Of a stretch of DNA of 40,980 nucleotides, positions 28,001-37,688 are shown piece after piece. The DNA lies in contig CADCNV010000006.1 in assembly GCA_902802825.1 (NCBI GenBank), positions 1 through 40,980 on the forward strand, in the 5' to 3' direction. A program made the position numbers and the translations under genes. Every line of letters begins with the position of its first letter. The stretch's first letter is position 1. The notes beneath the pieces were generated by a model. It saw only the letters and a list, made by a program, of their open reading frames with translations. It was not told where the DNA came from and ran no database searches. Source of the stretch: an uncultured bacterium. GTDB taxonomy: Bacteria > Cyanobacteriota > Vampirovibrionia > Gastranaerophilales > Gastranaerophilaceae.

Positions 28001-28270
28001 TTGAACCTGACAGGAGCAGATTATGTAATTCACTACGACCCGTGGTGGAACCCTGCTGTTGAAGATCAGGCAACAGACCGTGCATACCGTATCGGACAAA
28101 CCAAAAAAGTATTTGTTTACCGACTTATTACCAAAAATACGGTTGAAGAAAAAATTCAGAAACTCAAAGGGGTTAAACGTGACCTTGTTGACAGCGTAAT
28201 TTCGGTTGACAGAAATATTACTAAATCTCTTACAATGGATGACATCAGAGAAATCTTCTCCGTTGATTAA
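25088..28270 (+). CDS. SWIM-SNF2 family helicase-like ATPase
   Basis: This 1060-residue Swi2/Snf2 ATPase starts with a SWIM zinc finger (Cys69-x-Cys71...Cys78-x-His80 in CNCPLKEEWCKH). A middle region with SNF2-associated features is followed by two RecA domains. Motif I is DDMGLGKT (622-629), motif II is DESQ (719-722) rather than DEAH, motif III is LSGTPIENKLEELWS, and the C-terminal domain has FSQFVNMLD, LISLKAGGTGLNLTGADYVIHYDPWWNP and DRAYRIGQ. Such proteins translocate on double-stranded DNA and remodel nucleoprotein; the bacterial class is poorly characterised, possibly acting in transcription recycling (RapA-like) or DNA repair. It has its own promoter. The following 449 bases separate it from rpoB. 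Confidence 0.92.
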   Translation: MSTTEFNYKYIKEHASAGSWRRGYEYHTKDMVFDNYPEKNFYMGKVKGNFQDHYNTDLIFKKNKVEARCNCPLKEEWCKHAVAVALKAIDAHAYEDWLSTKFGMEFDFPDENTELTEKPQGSYIFHFNSKRKANFFSVLVRSRETGKIIRQIEPLFRAILETQKNDKKFELNDSQKVEFLIFKELLQISRQDKKAGWYDVPIAKFGSIFPLLAKADEVLDERTKERLKFTNEEWKLVLYVNASQTPGTLLLSLEWQRPDRDDVYPFEEVRYFSRHLKWGRYKNVMFPTNVAIQALPQSITKASFTDLKDAECGKFIYEDLPKLREVMDVVVDEQISKLMLEERPPINVVTMGIDYDQSLKAELNFEYDGVRVPYSKTAQDKAPYITVKKPDSDVIYWVKRNIKHENEAYAMLLACKFVPMQTNNLALEKETAIDFYNYYLKQAGDGWKFEEKDDMSFFKIMENPFKLCAEIDFSEEQPDSFDVKIFGKVGEEIIDFDEIYDTAQKDEKYSRIRSNGFVEYPVQSIYAMMRTFNSFDVYRNEDNTFTVKTFRAGLINELKNLGIELILSDKFKEFWDQMSTFSTSEDLKLPEGISADFREYQLKGFGWLWFMYKYGLNGILADDMGLGKTLQALTAIQKAKEVDGPMPTLVIAPTTVVFNWENEIQKFAPTLSCLKLQGGERKQFFQKIPEYDVVITSYALVRRDIEKLKDINFRYIILDESQNIKNATSQTAQAVKKLQSMHKLALSGTPIENKLEELWSVFDFLMPGFLFSMADFNSHYVNPIMERHDKIVEKRLKLQIYPFILRRMKRDVAKDLPDKVENVAYCEMTDEQRDFYLQVLDSTKEELFKSIEQNGLEKSRMSIFSALLRMRQICCHPRLYDKDNVKNIISSGKFEKLKYMLEEIISEGHRILLFSQFVNMLDIIKAWLDREGIKYEYLTGKTKDRKEAVDRFNNDTTIPIFLISLKAGGTGLNLTGADYVIHYDPWWNPAVEDQATDRAYRIGQTKKVFVYRLITKNTVEEKIQKLKGVKRDLVDSVISVDRNITKSLTMDDIREIFSVD

Positions 28271-28498
28271 TCTTGATTTGATATTTGATTATTTTTTATT
28301 TAAATCGCTGTATCTATTCTTACACAAGCATTTCGGGATTAATGTCAAAACTCACTGTTTATGCAGCATACGGCATGCCGATAAGATTTTAAATAACGCT
28401 AAAAAGCAGTCATAGTCAAATGTATAGGTATATAAAAATTATTGTGAAGTTTTATTACAAAAATTTATGGAATTATTGTATTTTTTACGCTAAATTTC

Positions 28499-28526
28499 TT
28501 GACTATAAATATTTATGTAATACGAT
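28499..28526 (+). promoter_or_regulatory. Probable rpoB-rpoC1-rpoC2 promoter
   Basis: TTGACT (28499-28504) and TACGAT (28521-28526) are separated by 16 bases. Transcription would start near 28533, leaving a leader of about 187 nt before the rpoB ATG. It is the best -35/-10 pair in the gap. Confidence 0.6.
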
Positions 28527-28586
28527 TAGATAACATGCAAAATGTAAAGTAAGGCGAACTATGCCTGTTTGACGGAAAGTTTGAAT

Positions 28587-28715
28587 ATGAGCGGATTTTA
28601 CCTACTTTATAAACCCATGAAAATTGCATTATTTGTTCATTTTGAACAGAGGGTTCACAGCCATAAGTTAGAAAAATTTTTTAGTAGTACGTACACCATT
28701 TATTTTATGAGGTGA
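28587..28715 (+). CDS. Possible rpoB leader peptide (upstream ORF, 42 codons)
   Basis: An ATG at 28587, seven bases after GGAAAG, opens a 42-codon frame ending with TGA at 28713-28715. The peptide begins [20 protein letters not shown] and ends TIYFMR. Its stop lies inside the Shine-Dalgarno of rpoB (GAGGTGA, 28709-28715), four bases before the rpoB ATG, an arrangement suited to translational coupling or leader control. The frame is short enough to have arisen by chance in AT-rich DNA, and I know of no family match. A three-codon ORF (ATG CCT GTT TGA) lies just upstream at 28561. Low confidence as a real gene. Confidence 0.3.
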
Positions 28716-28719
28716 TTTA

Positions 28720-31700
28720 ATGTCTGAGACAAAATACGAAAAAAGGGTAACGCCAATGGGTATCCCGCATACTCGTTTGGACGATTTACCGGATCTTATT
28801 GAAGTGCAGAAAAAATCCTTTGAATGGTTTTTAACAGAAGGTTTGAAAGAAGAATTACTTGCTTTCTCACCAATTAAAGACTATACAGGCAGATTAGAAT
28901 TGCACTTTTTACCAAACTATACTTTCGACAATGCAAAGTATACAATTGAAGAAGCAAGAATTCATGACGCAACTTACGCAAAACAATTAAGAGTCATGAT
29001 AAGACTTGTAAACCGTGACAGCGGTGAAATTAAAGAACAGGAAGTTTACATCGGTGACATCCCGACAATGACTGACAAAGGTACATTCATTGTAAACGGC
29101 GCAGAACGTGTAATCGTTTCTCAAATCGTTCGTTCACCGGGTGTTTATTTTGACAAAACCATTTCTCCTAACGGGAAACGTTTGTATAATGCTACAATGA
29201 TTCCTAACCGCGGAGCGTGGGTTAAATTTGAAACTGATGCCAATGATGTTATTCACGTTAAAATTGACAAAAACAGAAAAATCTTGGCTACAACATTATT
29301 GAAAGCAATGGGTATCACTGTTGCAGAAATGGAATCAAAATTTACTCACTTTGATTTCTTAAAGAAAACTTTGGATAAAGATACAGCTGAAACAACAGAT
29401 GATGCTTTAATCGATTTATACAAAAAGTTAAGACCGGGAGATCCTGCATCTCCTCAGGGCGGACGTCAGATTTTGGAATCAAGATTCTTTGATGCTAAAA
29501 AATATGACATCGGTCGTGTAGGTCGTTATAAATTAAACAAAAAATTAAATTTGAATGTTCCTGCAAACCAGAGAACATTAACAGTTGAAGATATCGTTTC
29601 AACAATCGAATATTTGGTTAACTTAACTTATGACGAAGGTACGTTGGATGATATCGACCACTTGGGTAACAGAAGAATCCGCTCGGTTGGTGAATTATTA
29701 CAAAACCAATTCAGAGTCGGTCTTTCAAGAATCGAAAGAATCGTAAAAGAAAGAATGACATTGCAGGATTCTGAAACATTAACTCCGTTGAATTTATTGA
29801 ACACTAAACCGTTAGTTGCTTCATTAAAAGAATTTTTCGGAAGTTCTCAGTTATCACAATTTATGGATCAAACCAACCCGCTTGCTGAATTAACTCACAA
29901 AAGACGTATTTCAGCATTAGGGCCGGGCGGTTTGCAAAGAGAAAGAGCCGGATTCCCTGTCCGTGATATTCACCCTTCTCACTACGGACGTATTTGTCCT
30001 ATTGAAACTCCGGAAGGTCCAAACGCAGGTTTGATCGGTTCATTAGCTACTCACGCAAGAGTTAATGATTACGGCTTTATCGAATCTCCGTTCTTTGTTG
30101 TTAAAGACGGCGTTGTAACTGATGAAGTTGTTTATATGACAGCAGACGCCGATGAAAACTATCGTTGCGCTCCTGCCGATGTTAAATTGAATAAAGACAG
30201 AACATTTAAAGAAGACATCGTTCCTGTAAGATACCGTTCAGAATTCGTTATGGAACCGGCATCTAAAGTCGACTATGTCGGTGTATGTCCTATTCAGATT
30301 ATTTCTGTCGCAACTTCAATGATTCCGTTCATTGAACACGACGATGCTAACCGTGCATTGATGGGTTCTAACATGCAGCGTCAGGCAGTACCTCTTTTGA
30401 TTACTCAAAGACCAAGAGTTGGTACAGGTCTTGAATCACGTGTTGCAAAAGACTCAGGCATGGTTGTTGTCGCTGATGTTGACGGAACAGTTGAAAGAGT
30501 TGTCGGTGAAGAAATCGTAATCAGAGATCAACACAACAAATCTCACATATATACATTAATGAAATATGTAAGAAGTAACCAAGATACTTGTATTAACCAA
30601 AGACCTATCGTTCATGAGGGAGATAAAGTTAAAGCAGGCGATGTAATCGCTGATGGTGCATCAACTTGCGGCGGAGAGCTTTCATTAGGTAAAAACATTC
30701 TCGTAGCTTACATGCCTTGGGAAGGTTATAACTATGAAGACGCTATCCTGCTTTCAGAAAGATGCGTACACGATGACATCTTTACTTCATTACACATTGA
30801 AAAATTAGAAATTGAAGCACGTCAAACAAAACTCGGACCTGAAGAAATTACCCGTGAAATTCCGAATGTATCAGAAGATGCACTTCGTCATTTGGATGAA
30901 CGCGGTATTGTTCGTATCGGTGCAAGAGTTTATCCTGATGATATTCTTGTTGGTAAAGTTACTCCGAAAGGTGAATCTGAACATCCGCCTGAAGAAAAAT
31001 TGTTAAGAGCAATCTTTGCCGAAAAAGCAAGAGATGTAAAAGATAATTCATTGAGAGTACCTCACGGCGGCGGCGGAAGAGTCCTCGACGTCAAGGTATT
31101 TGACAGAGAAAAAGGTGATGAATTACCACCGGGAGCTAATACGGTAATCCGAGTTTATATTGCTCAAAAACGTAAAGTTTCAGTCGGTGATAAACTTTCA
31201 GGACGTCACGGTAACAAAGGTATCGTATCAAGAATTCTTCCAAAAGAAGATATGCCATTCTTACCTGATGGTACTCCTGTAGATATCGTTTTGAATCCGC
31301 TTGGTGTTCCTTCCCGTATGAACGTTGGTCAAACTTACGAACTATTGTTAGGTTTGGCTGCATACCTGACAGGTAAACACTATGAGGCACCTGCATTTGA
31401 TGAAATGTATGGCGAAAACGAATCTGAAATAGTTACTAAAGGTGAATTGTTAGAAGGTATCAAAAAATCAGGTGCAACCTGGGTTGGCGAAGACGGTAAG
31501 GTAACACTTATCGACGGAAGAACGGGAGAACCGTTTGACAGACCTGTTGCTGTTGGTTTGACATACTTCCTGAAATTAGTTCACTTGGTAGATGATAAAA
31601 TTCACGCAAGAAGTACAGGTCCTTATTCACTTGTAACTCAACAGCCATTGGGTGGTAAAGCTCAATTCGGCGGTCAGAGATTCGGGGAAATGGAAGTTTG

Positions 31701-32037
31701 GGCATTAGAGGCATACGGTGCTGCATATACTCTTCAAGAAATGTTAACAATCAAATCAGATGATGTTAACGGAAGAAACAGAGCTTATGAAGCAATCGTT
31801 AAGGGCGATAATATCCCAAGACCCGGTATTCCGGAATCATTCAAGGTACTTGTAAGAGAATTACAAAGTATCGGTTTGGATATTACGGTATCCAAAAAAG
31901 ACGGAACAGAAGTAGATTTGATGACAGATATGGACGACTTGAGAAAAGCTGCTCCAAAAAGAACTTTGTCAGATGTTGATTCAGAGTTGTTGAATATCAA
32001 CTTCTTTGAGACACCAACTACTTTCGGTGACCTGTAG
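28720..32037 (+). CDS. rpoB: DNA-directed RNA polymerase subunit beta
   Basis: This is the beta subunit (1105 aa) of the core RNA polymerase. It lacks the large lineage insertions of the 1342-residue E. coli protein, as expected for the Cyanobacteria-type short RpoB. The conserved core is complete: [12 protein letters not shown] near the N-terminus, the rifampicin-region segments [29 protein letters not shown] and [28 protein letters not shown], and the C-terminal [19 protein letters not shown] and [40 protein letters not shown] precedes the ATG by four bases. It ends in tandem TAG TAG stops and is followed by a hairpin and rpoC1. It is not preceded by rplJ-rplL as in most bacteria. Confidence 0.98.
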
Positions 32038-32091: not shown

Positions 32092-33798
32092 ATGTCAACA
32101 AGCATAGATTATTTTGACTATATACGAATAAGTATTGCATCTCCGGAAAGAATACTTCAATGGTCACACGGCGAAGTTACAAAACCGGAAACAATAAACT
32201 ATCGTACATTAAAACCGGAAAGAGACGGTTTGTTCTGCGAAAGAATTTTCGGGCCGACAAAGGACTGGGAATGTTATTGCGGAAAGTATAAAAGAGTAAG
32301 ACATAAAGGTATTATCTGCGAACGCTGCGGTGTTGAAGTTACGGATTCAAAAGTAAGACGTCACAGAATGGGACACATTAAACTTGCTGCTCCTGTTTCT
32401 CACATCTGGTTTTTGAAAGGTATTCCTTCATATCTTGGCTTACTTTTAGATATGACTTTGAAAAATCTTGAACAAGTTATCTATTTCAACAGCTATGTTG
32501 TATTAGACGGCGGAGATTCAGATTTCAAAAAACTTCAGTTATTATCTGAAGAAGAATACGAAGATTATATGGCTGAAAACGAAGAATCTACATTAAAAGT
32601 CGGTATCGGTGCTGAAGCTATTCAACAATTACTTGGAGAAATAGATATCAATGCTTTGGCTGAAGAAATCAGAACAGAATTAGAAGGCAGCGTTTCAGTT
32701 CAGAAAAAATCTAAATTAATTAAGAGATTAAGATTATTAGATAACTTAATTCAGTCAGGTACAAATCCGACATGGATGATAATGGATGTAATTCCTGTTA
32801 CTCCTCCGGATTTAAGACCTATGGTTCAATTAGACGGCGGCAGATTTGCTACATCTGATTTGAACGACTTATACAGACGTGTAATAAACAGAAACAATCG
32901 TTTACAACGTTTATTGGAAATGGGTGCTCCTGAAATTATCGTCAGAAACGAAAAACGTATGCTTCAGGAAGCCGTTGACGCTTTAATTGATAACGGCAGA
33001 AGAGGCAGAACAGTTGTCGGTCCTAACAACAGAGCACTGAAATCATTATCTAACATCATTGAAGGTAAACAAGGTCGTTTCCGTCAGAACTTGTTAGGTA
33101 AACGTGTTGACTATTCAGGTCGTTCAGTAATCGTTGTCGGTCCGTCATTGAGATTGAATCAATGCGGTTTGCCGAAAGAAATGGCTATCGAATTGTTTAA
33201 ACCGTTTGTTATTAATAAATTAATAGAAAGAGGATACGTTCAAAATATTAAATCAGCTAAGAAGAAGATTGAACGTTCGGATCCTGTCATTTGGGATATC
33301 TTAGAAGAAGTTATCGACGGGCACCCGGTATTATTGAACCGTGCTCCAACGCTTCACAGATTAGGTATCCAGGCATTTGAACCAAAACTTGTTGAAGGTC
33401 GTGCTATTCAGTTACATCCGTTAGCTTGTACAGCGTTCAACGCAGACTTCGACGGTGACCAAATGGCTGTTCACGTTCCTTTATCAATCGAAGCACAGGC
33501 AGAAGCAAGAATGTTAATGTTAGCTACTAATAACTTACTTGCACCTGCAAACGGAAAACCGATTGTATCTCCTTCTCAGGATATGGTCTTGGGTATGTAT
33601 TACTTAACGACTATGAAAGATCCTAATCAGGAAGTACAAGGTTACTTCTACAGCTTCGAAGATGCAATTTCAGCATTTGAAGTTAAGGTAATCAAACTTC
33701 ACGATAAGATTGTTGTTCGTGACAGAAAAGGCGAAAGAATCGAAACTACTGTCGGAAGAATTATCTTCAATGAAGAAATAAGAAAAGCGTTAGTTTAA
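32092..33798 (+). CDS. rpoC1: RNA polymerase subunit gamma (N-terminal half of beta')
   Basis: This is the N-terminal half (568 aa) of the split beta' subunit. The zinc ribbon has Cys61, Cys63, Cys76 and Cys79 (CYCGKY...CERCGVEV), followed by [20 protein letters not shown]. The catalytic Mg-binding motif NADFDGD lies at residues 450-456 in [20 protein letters not shown]. The protein stops soon after [17 protein letters not shown], exactly where the cyanobacterial gamma subunit ends, and rpoC2 begins 29 bases later. AAAGGAG precedes the ATG. Split beta' is a known hallmark of Cyanobacteria and plastids. No frameshift is visible; both genes start and stop cleanly with ribosome sites, so this is a true gene split, not sequence error. 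Confidence 0.97.
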
Positions 33799-33827: not shown

Positions 33828-36800
33828 ATGGAAATGACATATACACATACAAAAAAAGATCCTGATTTCATTAATAAACAAATGGATAAAGGTTCATTGA
33901 AGAAATTGTTAGGTCAAATGTATTTGGAATATGGCGGAGCAAAAGAAGCAAATCTTGCTGATGCTTTAAAAACATTAGGTTACAGATATGCAACTATGTC
34001 CGGTACTACTATTTCAATTGCAGATTTATCAGTTCCTGAATCTAAAAAAGATTTGTTGAAATCAGCAGAAAAGGAAATTGAAGTATCACAAAACAGATAC
34101 TTAAAAGGTGAGATCACAGAAGTCGAAAGATATACAAAAGTTATCGATACCTGGGCTGAAACAACAGCTAAGCTGACAGAACAGGTTGTAGAAAACTTTG
34201 ACAGATTAAACCCTGTTTATATGATGGCATTCTCAGGTGCGAGAGGTAACTTATCTCAGGTATCTCAGTTAGTAGGTATGAGAGGTTTGATGGCTGATAC
34301 ACAAGGTCAGATTATCGACTTGCCTATTAAATCAAACTTCAAAGAAGGTCTTTCTGTTACCGAATACATCATTTCATCTTACGGTGCAAGAAAAGGTCTT
34401 GTAGATACAGCGTTGAAAACAGCCGATTCAGGTTATTTGACAAGACGTTTGGTTGACGTTGCACAAGATGTTATCGTAAGAGATGAAGATTGCCACACTG
34501 ATAAATATATCGATTTGAAACCGATTATGGACGGTGATGCAATTATTGTTCCTTTAATCGACAGATTATTGGGCAGAACAGTTGCACAAGACATAACAGA
34601 TAAAGATGGCAACGTAATTATCACTAACGGAACAACATTAAATAGAGATGATATTAAGAAAATTTCAGGTTTAGACCTGCAGAATTTAAGAGTACGTTCA
34701 GCATTGACATGCGGTTTGGAATACGGTGTATGCCAAAAATGCTATGGTTGGGCATTAACATCACAAAAACTTGTTGATGTAGGTGAATCAATCGGTATTA
34801 TCGCGGCTCAATCAATCGGTGAACCTGGTACACAGCTTACAATGAGAACATTCCACACAGGTGGTGCTGTCGGCGTTAAAGAAGCAATGAAAGAAATTAA
34901 AGCACACGAAGCCGGTACCGTAATTTCTAAAATTAAAACAAGAGAACTCAGAACCCGTCACGGGGATGTTGTTCAGGTTGCAATGTATGAAGCTGATTTG
35001 GAAGTTAAAGGCGAAAAAAGAACTTCTAAATATCACATTCCTGCAGGCGCAACAGTATTTGTTAAAGATGGTGATAAAGTTACCAAGGGCTTCAAAATGG
35101 CAGAACACGCTCCTCAATCAAGCAGCGATTCAAGCCGTTTGACAGAAAAAGCTCAAAAAGATATTATTTCTGACATCAGCGGTGAAGTTGTATTTGACGG
35201 ATTCAAAGCTGATGAAAAGAAAGACAGACAAGGCAACGTATTAAGAACCACAAACAAACAAGGTATTGTTTGGGTATTAGGCGGCGATGTATACACATTA
35301 CCGGGCGGTTCAAAAGTTCTTGTCAAAGACGGTCAAAAAGTATCTGAAGGCGAAAAACTTGCTGAAACTCTTACAATCTGCGAACACGGCGGTGAAGTCA
35401 GAGTCGGCAGCGATTTAGTCGTTGAAGATGCTAAATTTGACGGTAAGAAAATTAAAAAGATTGTTTCAGGTAAAGAATTGACAATCGTTATTGCTTCTTT
35501 AGCTCCTGAAAATGCATCTTTTGAACAAACTAAAAAAGAACAAATCTGGACAGTTGATAAAACCGGTGAAAAATATATCGTTAAGGCAGTTGTAGATACA
35601 ACAGTTGAAAACGGTATGATTATCGGGGAACTTATTGATGATGATTGTTCAGTTCCATCTTCAGGTGAAATCAGATACGTTGATGTTGAAGTTGACGAAA
35701 ATCAGATTATTACAAAACCCGGTAAGGTTGTATTCATTCCTGAAGAAGTTCATCAAATCAACAAAGATGCAACACTTAAAATGGTTGAAAACGGAACTAC
35801 CGTTACTGCAGGTACAGAAGTTGTAAAAGACGTTTACTGCCACATTGATGGTGTTGTTGAATTTAAAGAATACAATGATGTAATTCATGAAATTACAATA
35901 AGACCGGGTGAAGTTCATACTTTATCAAGCATTCAGGAATTGAAAGTTGATGAAGGTGAAGTTATCAAAAAAGGAACAGTTATCGCTGAAGGTATAAAAG
36001 CCAAAACTACTTCTGTTGTAACCATTATGGATTCTTCAGTTGAAGATTTGGCAATTGAAGATTTGGACGAAGAAATGGATGCTTCAATGGGTCTTGATGA
36101 AGATGCTATTGAAAATCAACCTGTTCAAATTTTAGTCAGACCTGTTCAGGTATTGGATATTGAACAAAAAGACGTATCAATCAAATTTAATTCTTCAGAT
36201 GAATTGATTGATGTTGTTCCTGTAACTCAATTACAATACAAAGACGGTGCAAGAGTCAGAAACATTGATGGTGCAACTATTACAAGAACAAGTTTGGTTC
36301 TTCAGATGGGCGGTTATTTATCTCACCTTAAAGGTGTTGTAGAACTTGATTCTCACGGGGAACTAAGAATCGTTGTACTTGAAAACTTAATTGTTCGTCG
36401 TGAACTTGAAGGTTCGGCTAATAATTCACTTCAAACCGAACTTTTGGTAAAAGACGGTCAGGTAATTGATCCAAAAACTCCTGTTGCAAAAACTCAGGTA
36501 TTAGCGTTACACGATGCAGTTGCATCAATCAAAGATAAAGAAGAAGAAGCAAGAAGATTATTGTTAATCTCTGAAAGCTCATATACTGATGTTAAAGTCA
36601 AGGGAAAAGCAACAGTTAAGAAAGGTGACCTGATTAAAACAGATAATGTAATCGCTGAAAGCGGTGAAACATCACCAATTTCAGGTATTGTTACCGCAGT
36701 AAACAAAGGCAGCGTTTCAATCAGAGTTGGTCGTCCTTACTTAATCAGCCCAGGTACTATGTTACTTGTTAATGCCGGCTCATTGGTATTAAGAGGTGAC

Positions 36801-37688
36801 TTAATCGTATCTTTGACTTATGAAAGAGAAAAAACAGGCGATATCGTTCAAGGTTTGCCAAAAGTTGAAGAATTACTTGAAGGTCGTCGTCCGAAAGATT
36901 GTGCTATTTTGGCAGAATTCGACGGAACAACAAAAATAGAAGTTGATGAAAGCGGATTCCCAAGATTATATCTTGAAGATGAAAACGGTTCTTCAACTGA
37001 AATTAAATATTCAATTGACGCAAATGTAATTGTCGGAAACAATCAAAAAGTTGTTAAAGGTCAGGCATTAACATCCGGTTCACCTGATCCGCATGATGTT
37101 ATGCGTTTAAGAGGACCTGAAGCAGCTCAACAATATCTTGTTGACGAAGTACAAAGAGTATATCGTTCTCAGGGCGTTGAAATTTCCGATAAACACATTG
37201 AAGTTATCGTTCGTCAAATGACTAAGAAAGTTAAAGTCGTTGACGCAGGTGAAACTAACTTGTTGCCTGGTGAACTTATTGAAGTTCAAATCTTTGAAAA
37301 AGAAAATAAAGAAGCAGAAGAAGCAGGTAAAGCTCCTGCAACTTGCGAACACATGTTGTTAGGTATTACCAAAGCTTCATTGAATACTGAATCATTCATT
37401 TCAGCAGCTTCATTCCAGGAAACAACAAGAATCTTAACAGAAGCTGCCGTTGAAGGTAAAAAAGACATGTTGAGAGGTTTGAAAGAAAACGTTATCATCG
37501 GTCGTTTAATACCGGCAGGTACAGGTTTCCACCATTTGATTAATGCAAATGAAGAAAGAGAAAAGGCAGAAAGAAAACAAGCCGTTGCTCAAAGAAACCA
37601 GGCAAGAAAACCATCTGCAATTTTGGAAGAAATCGAAGGAATGTTCGGTTCTCCTGACTTCGCAGGTGATGACGATATTATTGAATAA
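33828..37688 (+). CDS. rpoC2: RNA polymerase subunit beta' C-terminal half (RpoC2) with large trigger-loop insertion
   Basis: This is the C-terminal half (1286 aa) of beta'. The start region [19 protein letters not shown] continues where RpoC1 ends. [35 protein letters not shown] (second zinc site), [23 protein letters not shown] (bridge helix and first trigger-loop half, ending about residue 346) are all conserved. The second trigger-loop half, [19 protein letters not shown], begins only at residue 1005. The roughly 655 residues between are rich in short beta motifs (repeated VxxGxxVKKGxxIAE and VKDGxxV) like the sandwich-barrel hybrid motifs of the cyanobacterial SI3 insertion. An AAAGGG ribosome site precedes the start. 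A bidirectional terminator follows at 37709. Confidence 0.97.
   Translation: [1286 protein letters not shown]

Follow-up and report, generated by a model that had tools for sequence, protein, structure and literature searches.

What controls the synthesis of RNA polymerase at a locus where rpoBC stands apart from rplJL? Such control is mostly known from organisms in which rpoBC comes after rplJL. In the window, by which we mean the whole stretch of 40,980 nucleotides that was analysed, rpoB is followed by rpoC1 and rpoC2. Pfam searches confirmed RpoB and an RpoC divided into RpoC1 and RpoC2, as well as an SNF2-type helicase upstream that ends at 28270; rplJ and rplL of the same genome are located on a different contig from rpoB. 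The source is an uncultured gut bacterium of the Gastranaerophilales, and its nearest named relatives are rumen and gut assemblies. The initial annotation held that an rpoBC without the rplJL arrangement would need another control, and proposed that translation of a 42-codon open reading frame (ORF) in the rpoB leader could open or mask the rpoB start and so give feedback on polymerase synthesis. The comparisons reported here lend support to the former idea, in the form of a leader-based control specific to rpoBC, but not to the short ORF as the control. The interpretation that we favour, and consider reasonably probable, is that the leader of approximately 187 nt is a conserved structured cis-acting RNA, and that a factor acting at hairpin P2 and the adjoining core (Table 1) sets the translation of rpoB or the stability of its mRNA. 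What makes the locus of interest is that, in a gut lineage that is widespread, rpoBC is found alone and is preceded by a compact RNA with an almost invariant core.

Table 1. Features of the rpoB leader and downstream genes (window positions).
Feature	Sequence	Position	Strand	Basis or remark
σ70-like promoter	TTGACT-16 bp-TACGAT	28499-28526	+	Pattern scan; predicted mRNA 5′ end near 28533
5′ segment	AACATGC...AAAGTAAGGCGAACTATGCCT	28532-28566	+	Conserved in alignment
P1, possible long-range stem	AAAGTAAGG with CCTACTTT	28546-28554 with 28601-28608	+	Duplex energies
P1a, possible small hairpin		28552-28555 with 28563-28566	+	Weakly supported
42-codon ORF of the initial annotation		28587-28715	+	Only the window and G016 have the frame open; apparent chance frame
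P2, hairpin	TTTGTT (28632-28637) with AACAGA (28645-28650)	28632-28650	+	Compensatory changes
Core	GGUUNACAGCC-NN-AAGUUAG	28652-28671	+	Almost invariant; directly 3′ of P2
AU-rich spacer, variable length		28672-28684	+	Inserts of at least 100 nt in some relatives
Segment upstream of the SD	UAGUACGUACACC	28685-28697	+	Alignments
rpoB Shine-Dalgarno sequence (SD)	GAGGTGA	28709-28715	+	Source of the stop codon of the ORF
rpoB		28720-32037	+	Pfam RNA_pol_Rpb2 domains
rpoC1		32092-33798	+	Pfam Rpb1 domains; next after rpoB
rpoC2		33828-37688	+	Pfam Rpb1 domains; next after rpoC1

The rpoB leaders used for comparison were gathered in two ways, via the RpoB N-terminus and via the core motif; one (L221) was omitted for having no SD in range, and 112 distinct leaders were compared. 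Labels such as f1 and g1 denote the family and genus groupings of the search tool. From 5′ to 3′ the order of elements is promoter, AACATGC, a G-rich segment, P2, the core, the AU-rich spacer, UAGUACGUACACC and the SD. A promoter of the form TTGA[CG]-N17-TAnn[AT]T heads 64 of the 65 leaders scanned, with the 16-bp spacer fixed. In the collection from which L221 was omitted, ten leaders had no promoter match, and their 5′ ends are approximate.

The short ORF is present just as the initial annotation described it. Its ATG (28587-28589) is separated by 7 nt from GGAAAG (28574-28579), and the frame runs for 42 codons to the TGA (28713-28715) within GAGGTGA, 4 nt 5′ of the rpoB ATG. The leader length given there likewise agrees with the 5′ end predicted from the position of the promoter. 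An upstream ORF controlling rpoB through translational coupling or leader-peptide attenuation could be read from the GGAAAG and from a stop codon inside the SD, but the position of this stop is trivial because the SD itself contains TGA; across the distinct leaders the SD supplies a stop for free, as TGA in 103 and as TAA in nine. When each leader is read upstream from its own SD stop, this frame of 42 codons stays open in just two cases, the window and the genome G016 (leader L002). It is broken in close relatives: in G092, the RpoB of which is 100% identical to that of the window over the N-terminal 200 residues, the frame is open for just 14 codons, and in G129 (99% identical RpoB N-terminus) for 23 codons, the sole start codon in both frames being the ATG beside the SD. 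In that register the frame extends for no more than two codons in 97 of the 112 leaders and for at least 20 codons in seven; 42 codons are reached in three, namely the window, G016 and L014, the last from an unrelated start. At the aligned position of the start codon, eight of the 20 leaders from the same genus (g1) have ATG, as judged by eye. Moreover, inserts found in the P2 loop of relatives would interrupt any leader peptide, and the ORF product has no Pfam match. Of mononucleotide shuffles of the window leader, 1.1% had a frame of 42 codons or more up to that stop, and one such example among many leaders is thus unremarkable.

Comparison of related rpoB leaders for a conserved peptide or a conserved RNA, the check that the initial annotation had proposed, came out in favour of RNA. 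A leader peptide would be expected to keep its frame and start codon in relatives, and neither is kept; loss of the frame from close relatives is the outcome that the initial annotation had named as refuting its proposal. Judging from these relatives the frame evidently lies in the leader by chance. We reject the peptide reading of this interval on these grounds, and control of rpoB through translation of the ORF seems to us scarcely credible. The result corrects a small-protein prediction which automatic calling of upstream ORFs could repeat.

Hairpin P2, which was proposed by unconstrained RNAalifold, carries the structural argument. Typical arms, each taken as the best match, are UUUAUC/GAUAAA, UUCAUU/AAUGAA, UUUGCC/GGCAAA and UUUACC/GGUAGA. 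The requirement for a P2 5′ arm a short distance away, with a score of 4.5 of 6 or better, left 82 distinct segments from the 112 leaders; these were thinned to 52, and 35 with a compact P2 and AU spacer were picked by hand for alignment (a further alignment, A1, comprised 28 of 41 compact leaders). In the 35-sequence alignment pairing is kept in 97.6% of P2 cells, and four of the six pairs show compensatory change on both sides. P2 and the core hairpin together contain 44 two-sided compensatory cells and give a covariation score of 0.403, compared with 0.233 for shuffled alignments and at most 0.179 when the partners are slid. Since the selection of these sequences favours pairing, we also ran an arm-swap control and a one-genus control. 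The former used all 112 leaders with no selection for pairing: a fully pairing partner for the fixed 3′ arm was found within 160 nt in 98 leaders, against 22.9 (s.d. 4.0) when arms were swapped, and within 20 nt in 76 leaders, against 14.8. The latter used an alignment (A3) of 20 g1 leaders picked solely as compact, in which 95% of P2 cells are paired, three of the six pairs show two-sided change and none of 500 shuffles reached as high a covariation score. Compensatory changes that keep a helix are the mark of a structured cis-acting leader and are found in P2, which from its pattern of substitution we take to be a real helix. The possible four-pair hairpin in the core, GGUU/AGCC, is invariant and thus uninformative on pairing.

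Long inserts are present in some relatives. In one group, which includes L004-L006, L008 and L012, they occupy the P2 loop; in L140, L150, L188 and L224 they occupy the AU spacer. The P2 arms and core are intact in both groups, and the covariance model R1 still scores 45-69 bits in the insert-bearing L004, L012, L140 and L188.

The core pattern occurs in 98 of 288 genomes of the family (11 of 41 genera), in one copy per genome and never in two, and the reversed pattern gave no matches in the same family-genome search. Part of the invariance of the core arises by construction, as the search pattern fixes most core positions, and independent support for its conservation comes from the protein-anchored g1 leaders. 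The pattern is single-copy in 39 of the 45 genomes of the genus. Six lack it, five of which (G018, G024, G028, G029 and G100) have no detectable RpoB N-terminus; in the sixth, G025, the core linker is longer by one base. The rpoB start lies 3′ of the core in every one of the 112 leaders, and this fixed link to one downstream gene holds across the 11 genera. Model R1 found the rpoB copy alone in 23 of 40 genomes (E ≤ 0.1) and had no match at this level in 15 genomes of other families; over 34 non-core loci its best score was 21.4 bits (E = 0.13), and these were not accepted as matches. As the core pattern is absent from 30 of the 41 genera, the element is not required for the control of rpoB in general. 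On an RpoB tree, the supports of which are rough and the bootstrap not settled, the core-bearing rows fall in one neighbourhood, with three changes compared with 20.1 after shuffling; the core-less g19 and g45 fall inside this neighbourhood. At the level of sequence comparison, P2, the core and the leader around them thus emerge as a conserved, structured and probably cis-acting RNA, of which both the structure and the link to rpoB are demonstrated. The element supplies a specific sequence for asking what it is that senses the level of polymerase, and the covariance model can be used in annotating these uncultured genomes.

Structure upstream of P2 is less clear. The possible elements P1 and P1a would compete for the same G bases. 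P1a shows both-sided change in one of four pairs, and 27 of 500 shuffles scored as high. For P1, 100 of the 112 leaders could be parsed and 85 were used: the mean duplex energy was −7.2 kcal/mol, compared with −5.3 kcal/mol for shuffled linkers, and the duplex beat 90% of shuffles in only 30 of the 85. P1 is weak or absent in genus g18. The initial annotation had pointed to a small hairpin and a long-range stem in the leader. The hairpin corresponds to P2 and is borne out by covariation, and the long-range partners AAAGUAAGG and CCUACUUU can pair, whereas P1 shows no covariation within genus g1; on the duplex energies, a long-range stem P1 is possible.

Downstream of the core, a candidate hairpin in the AU spacer ('P3') proved no stabler than shuffles (mean z of −0.12, with 18% below −1; n = 104) and was dropped. 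By eye, leaders from much of the order have a GUA-N-UAC or GCACCACAU-type segment, related to UAGUACGUACACC, in the corresponding position, and the strict pattern TAGTANGTACAYCAT is single-copy in seven of 21 genomes and absent from the other 14. We note that GUA-N-UAC or GCACCACAUAUAGGCGAGGU immediately 5′ of the rpoB SD (28685-28715 in the window) is common across much of the order, including where rplL is upstream, and may be an older translation element. The predicted accessibility of the SD averaged 0.30 over the 112 leaders and 0.40 over 11 genes of the window, which is no clear difference and gives no clear indication of SD masking.

The gene neighbourhood differs across the order. In other families, considering loci with 700 nt or more of sequence 5′ of rpoB, rplL is the immediate upstream neighbour in 13 of 15; in the family of the window it takes this position at none of 205 loci (132 distinct upstream sequences). 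This contrast, the placement of rplJ and rplL on another contig and the conserved leader RNA are the evidence behind the idea of a leader control specific to rpoBC. In other families (f2-f7; L066-L080) we also observed that the −35 box of the rpoB promoter lies within an inverted repeat, as in L068 with ATAGTCAA...TTGACTAT around a hairpin; in the window ATAGTCAA (28413) is found about 86 bp upstream of TTGACTAT (28499). Such a repeat could be an operator, or an rplL terminator overlapping the promoter. In the window's own genome (contig C40), an 81-codon ORF 3′ of rplL (L236:2079-2324) resembles by eye a stand-alone L7/L12 C-terminal domain.

Rfam searches gave no match in the window, the leader included, and three weak matches in a set of ten relatives that included the core-bearing L064, all under the cutoffs of their families. 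The closest likeness is to the Lacto-rpoB RNA (RF01709), which is listed for Lactobacillales in PMC2864571 and is reported in PMC7724050 as a cis-regulatory element of Enterococcus faecium, predicted within a 5′ UTR. Both it and the window leader are structured RNAs located ahead of rpoB. However, the Lacto-rpoB RNA belongs to another phylum, and RF01709 had no match at the gathering level, nor any up to E = 10 in 28495-28760, so that no common sequence or fold is demonstrated; the two may be regarded as analogous, of the same kind, with membership of one family not established. The L10 (rplJ) leader, RF00557, likewise had no match in the window or leader; rplJ is located elsewhere. That system, too, has an RNA leader, which acts on an operon whose last genes in many bacteria are rpoBC, but it differs in that rplL is never upstream of rpoB in the family of the window. 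In E. coli the feedback is by protein: L10(L12)4 is stated to repress rplJL, with rpoBC separately under autogenous control (PMC10931766). Leader-peptide and upstream-ORF attenuators share with the window a short ORF ahead of the regulated gene; they differ from it, as here neither frame nor start codon is conserved and there is no terminator. Orphan riboswitch-like motifs likewise present an invariant core beside a covarying hairpin upstream of one gene, but the element described here always precedes the same single gene, without a metabolic link. Literature searches, which had most subscription journals and all preprints outside their reach, found no description of this leader element. The comparisons suggest that it is most likely an undescribed cis-acting RNA.

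As regards its mode of action and the factor involved, we infer that P2 and the core would form the recognition site for a trans-acting factor, which would be a protein and not a peptide; candidates are RNA polymerase, any of its subunits and other RNA-binding proteins. Occupancy by this factor would alter access to the rpoB SD, and synthesis of the β subunit would thus be set at translation (or through mRNA stability) instead of via rplJL. An alternative is that the leader is a constitutive translation enhancer, a standby site or an mRNA-stability element without regulated switching, which would fit the conserved segment near the SD over much of the order, the lack of clear SD masking and the free variation of the peripheral parts of the leader. 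The almost invariant 18-base core and specific hairpin, restricted to one genus group, nevertheless exceed the needs of a general enhancer, and we regard such an element as conceivable but unlikely. A further possibility is control of polymerase as it leaves the leader, by transcription attenuation or by processive antitermination. The operon is long, and in E. coli an attenuator precedes rpoBC. However, a terminator-like hairpin, that is a hairpin with a U run, was found in none of the 112 leaders and is also absent from the window leader, in a scan that would miss Rho-dependent ends and antiterminator RNAs. As no leader has a terminator, action through an intrinsic terminator is unlikely, and we consider attenuation as a whole improbable.

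The core might also be read as a DNA element, with the RNA irrelevant: TTNACA ... TATAGT would then be an additional promoter, or the core an operator. The two motifs do look like promoter hexamers, but their setting varies in spacing by more than 100 bp through inserts, and none of the matches listed has G as the N of TTNACA (all have A, T or C), a departure from TTGACA; the compensatory changes in P2 are moreover a signature of RNA. A DNA element is thus highly improbable, and the second promoter or operator was dropped on the variable spacing and the P2 covariation. Returning to regulation by a factor bound at P2 and the core, feedback on rpoB by the polymerase itself would be an attractive possibility, because rpoBC is here without rplJL neighbours and E. 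coli rpoBC is described as autogenously controlled (PMC10931766).

The genera that lack the core have shorter or different rpoB leaders. We note that leaders from g37 and g44 (L238-L241) contain a different apparent hairpin module, a stem with an inner AGAGGC...GCGAAACA, the stems of which seem to be compensated between species (AATATAGTTT/AAACTATATT and AATACAGT/ACTGTGTT). This module is at rpoB in all four leaders read. A search of 12 genomes found its pattern in nine, mostly as a single copy; an additional match lies elsewhere in G199, and the reversed control pattern matched in G280. A similar AGAGGC...CGAAAC is present in L247 (g41). The leaders L058 and L059 (g45) are short and GC-richer, with an apparent fold of their own (AGGUCUUUAACC-like stretch) unlike either module.

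One speculative reading, which we advance tentatively and think more apt to fail than to hold, is that the separation from rplJL in this family made the rpoB leader a slot for differing structured RNA modules, which would sit between a promoter and a GUA-N-UAC...SD end that they have in common: one genus group would have the GGUUNACAGCC module, g37/g44 the AGAGGC...GCGAAACA hairpin, and the remainder short leaders. If this were true, each module would sense the cell's own level of RNA polymerase, with a fold unlike that of any described leader RNA.

A minor observation relates to the origin of the inserts. Those in L004, L008, L009, L020, L062, L150 and L224 have in common a dispersed palindromic repeat of the TGTCATTCTGAAC...GACCCTGAAA...TTCAGGGTGACA type, which apparently enters loops or the spacer and leaves the leader RNA intact.
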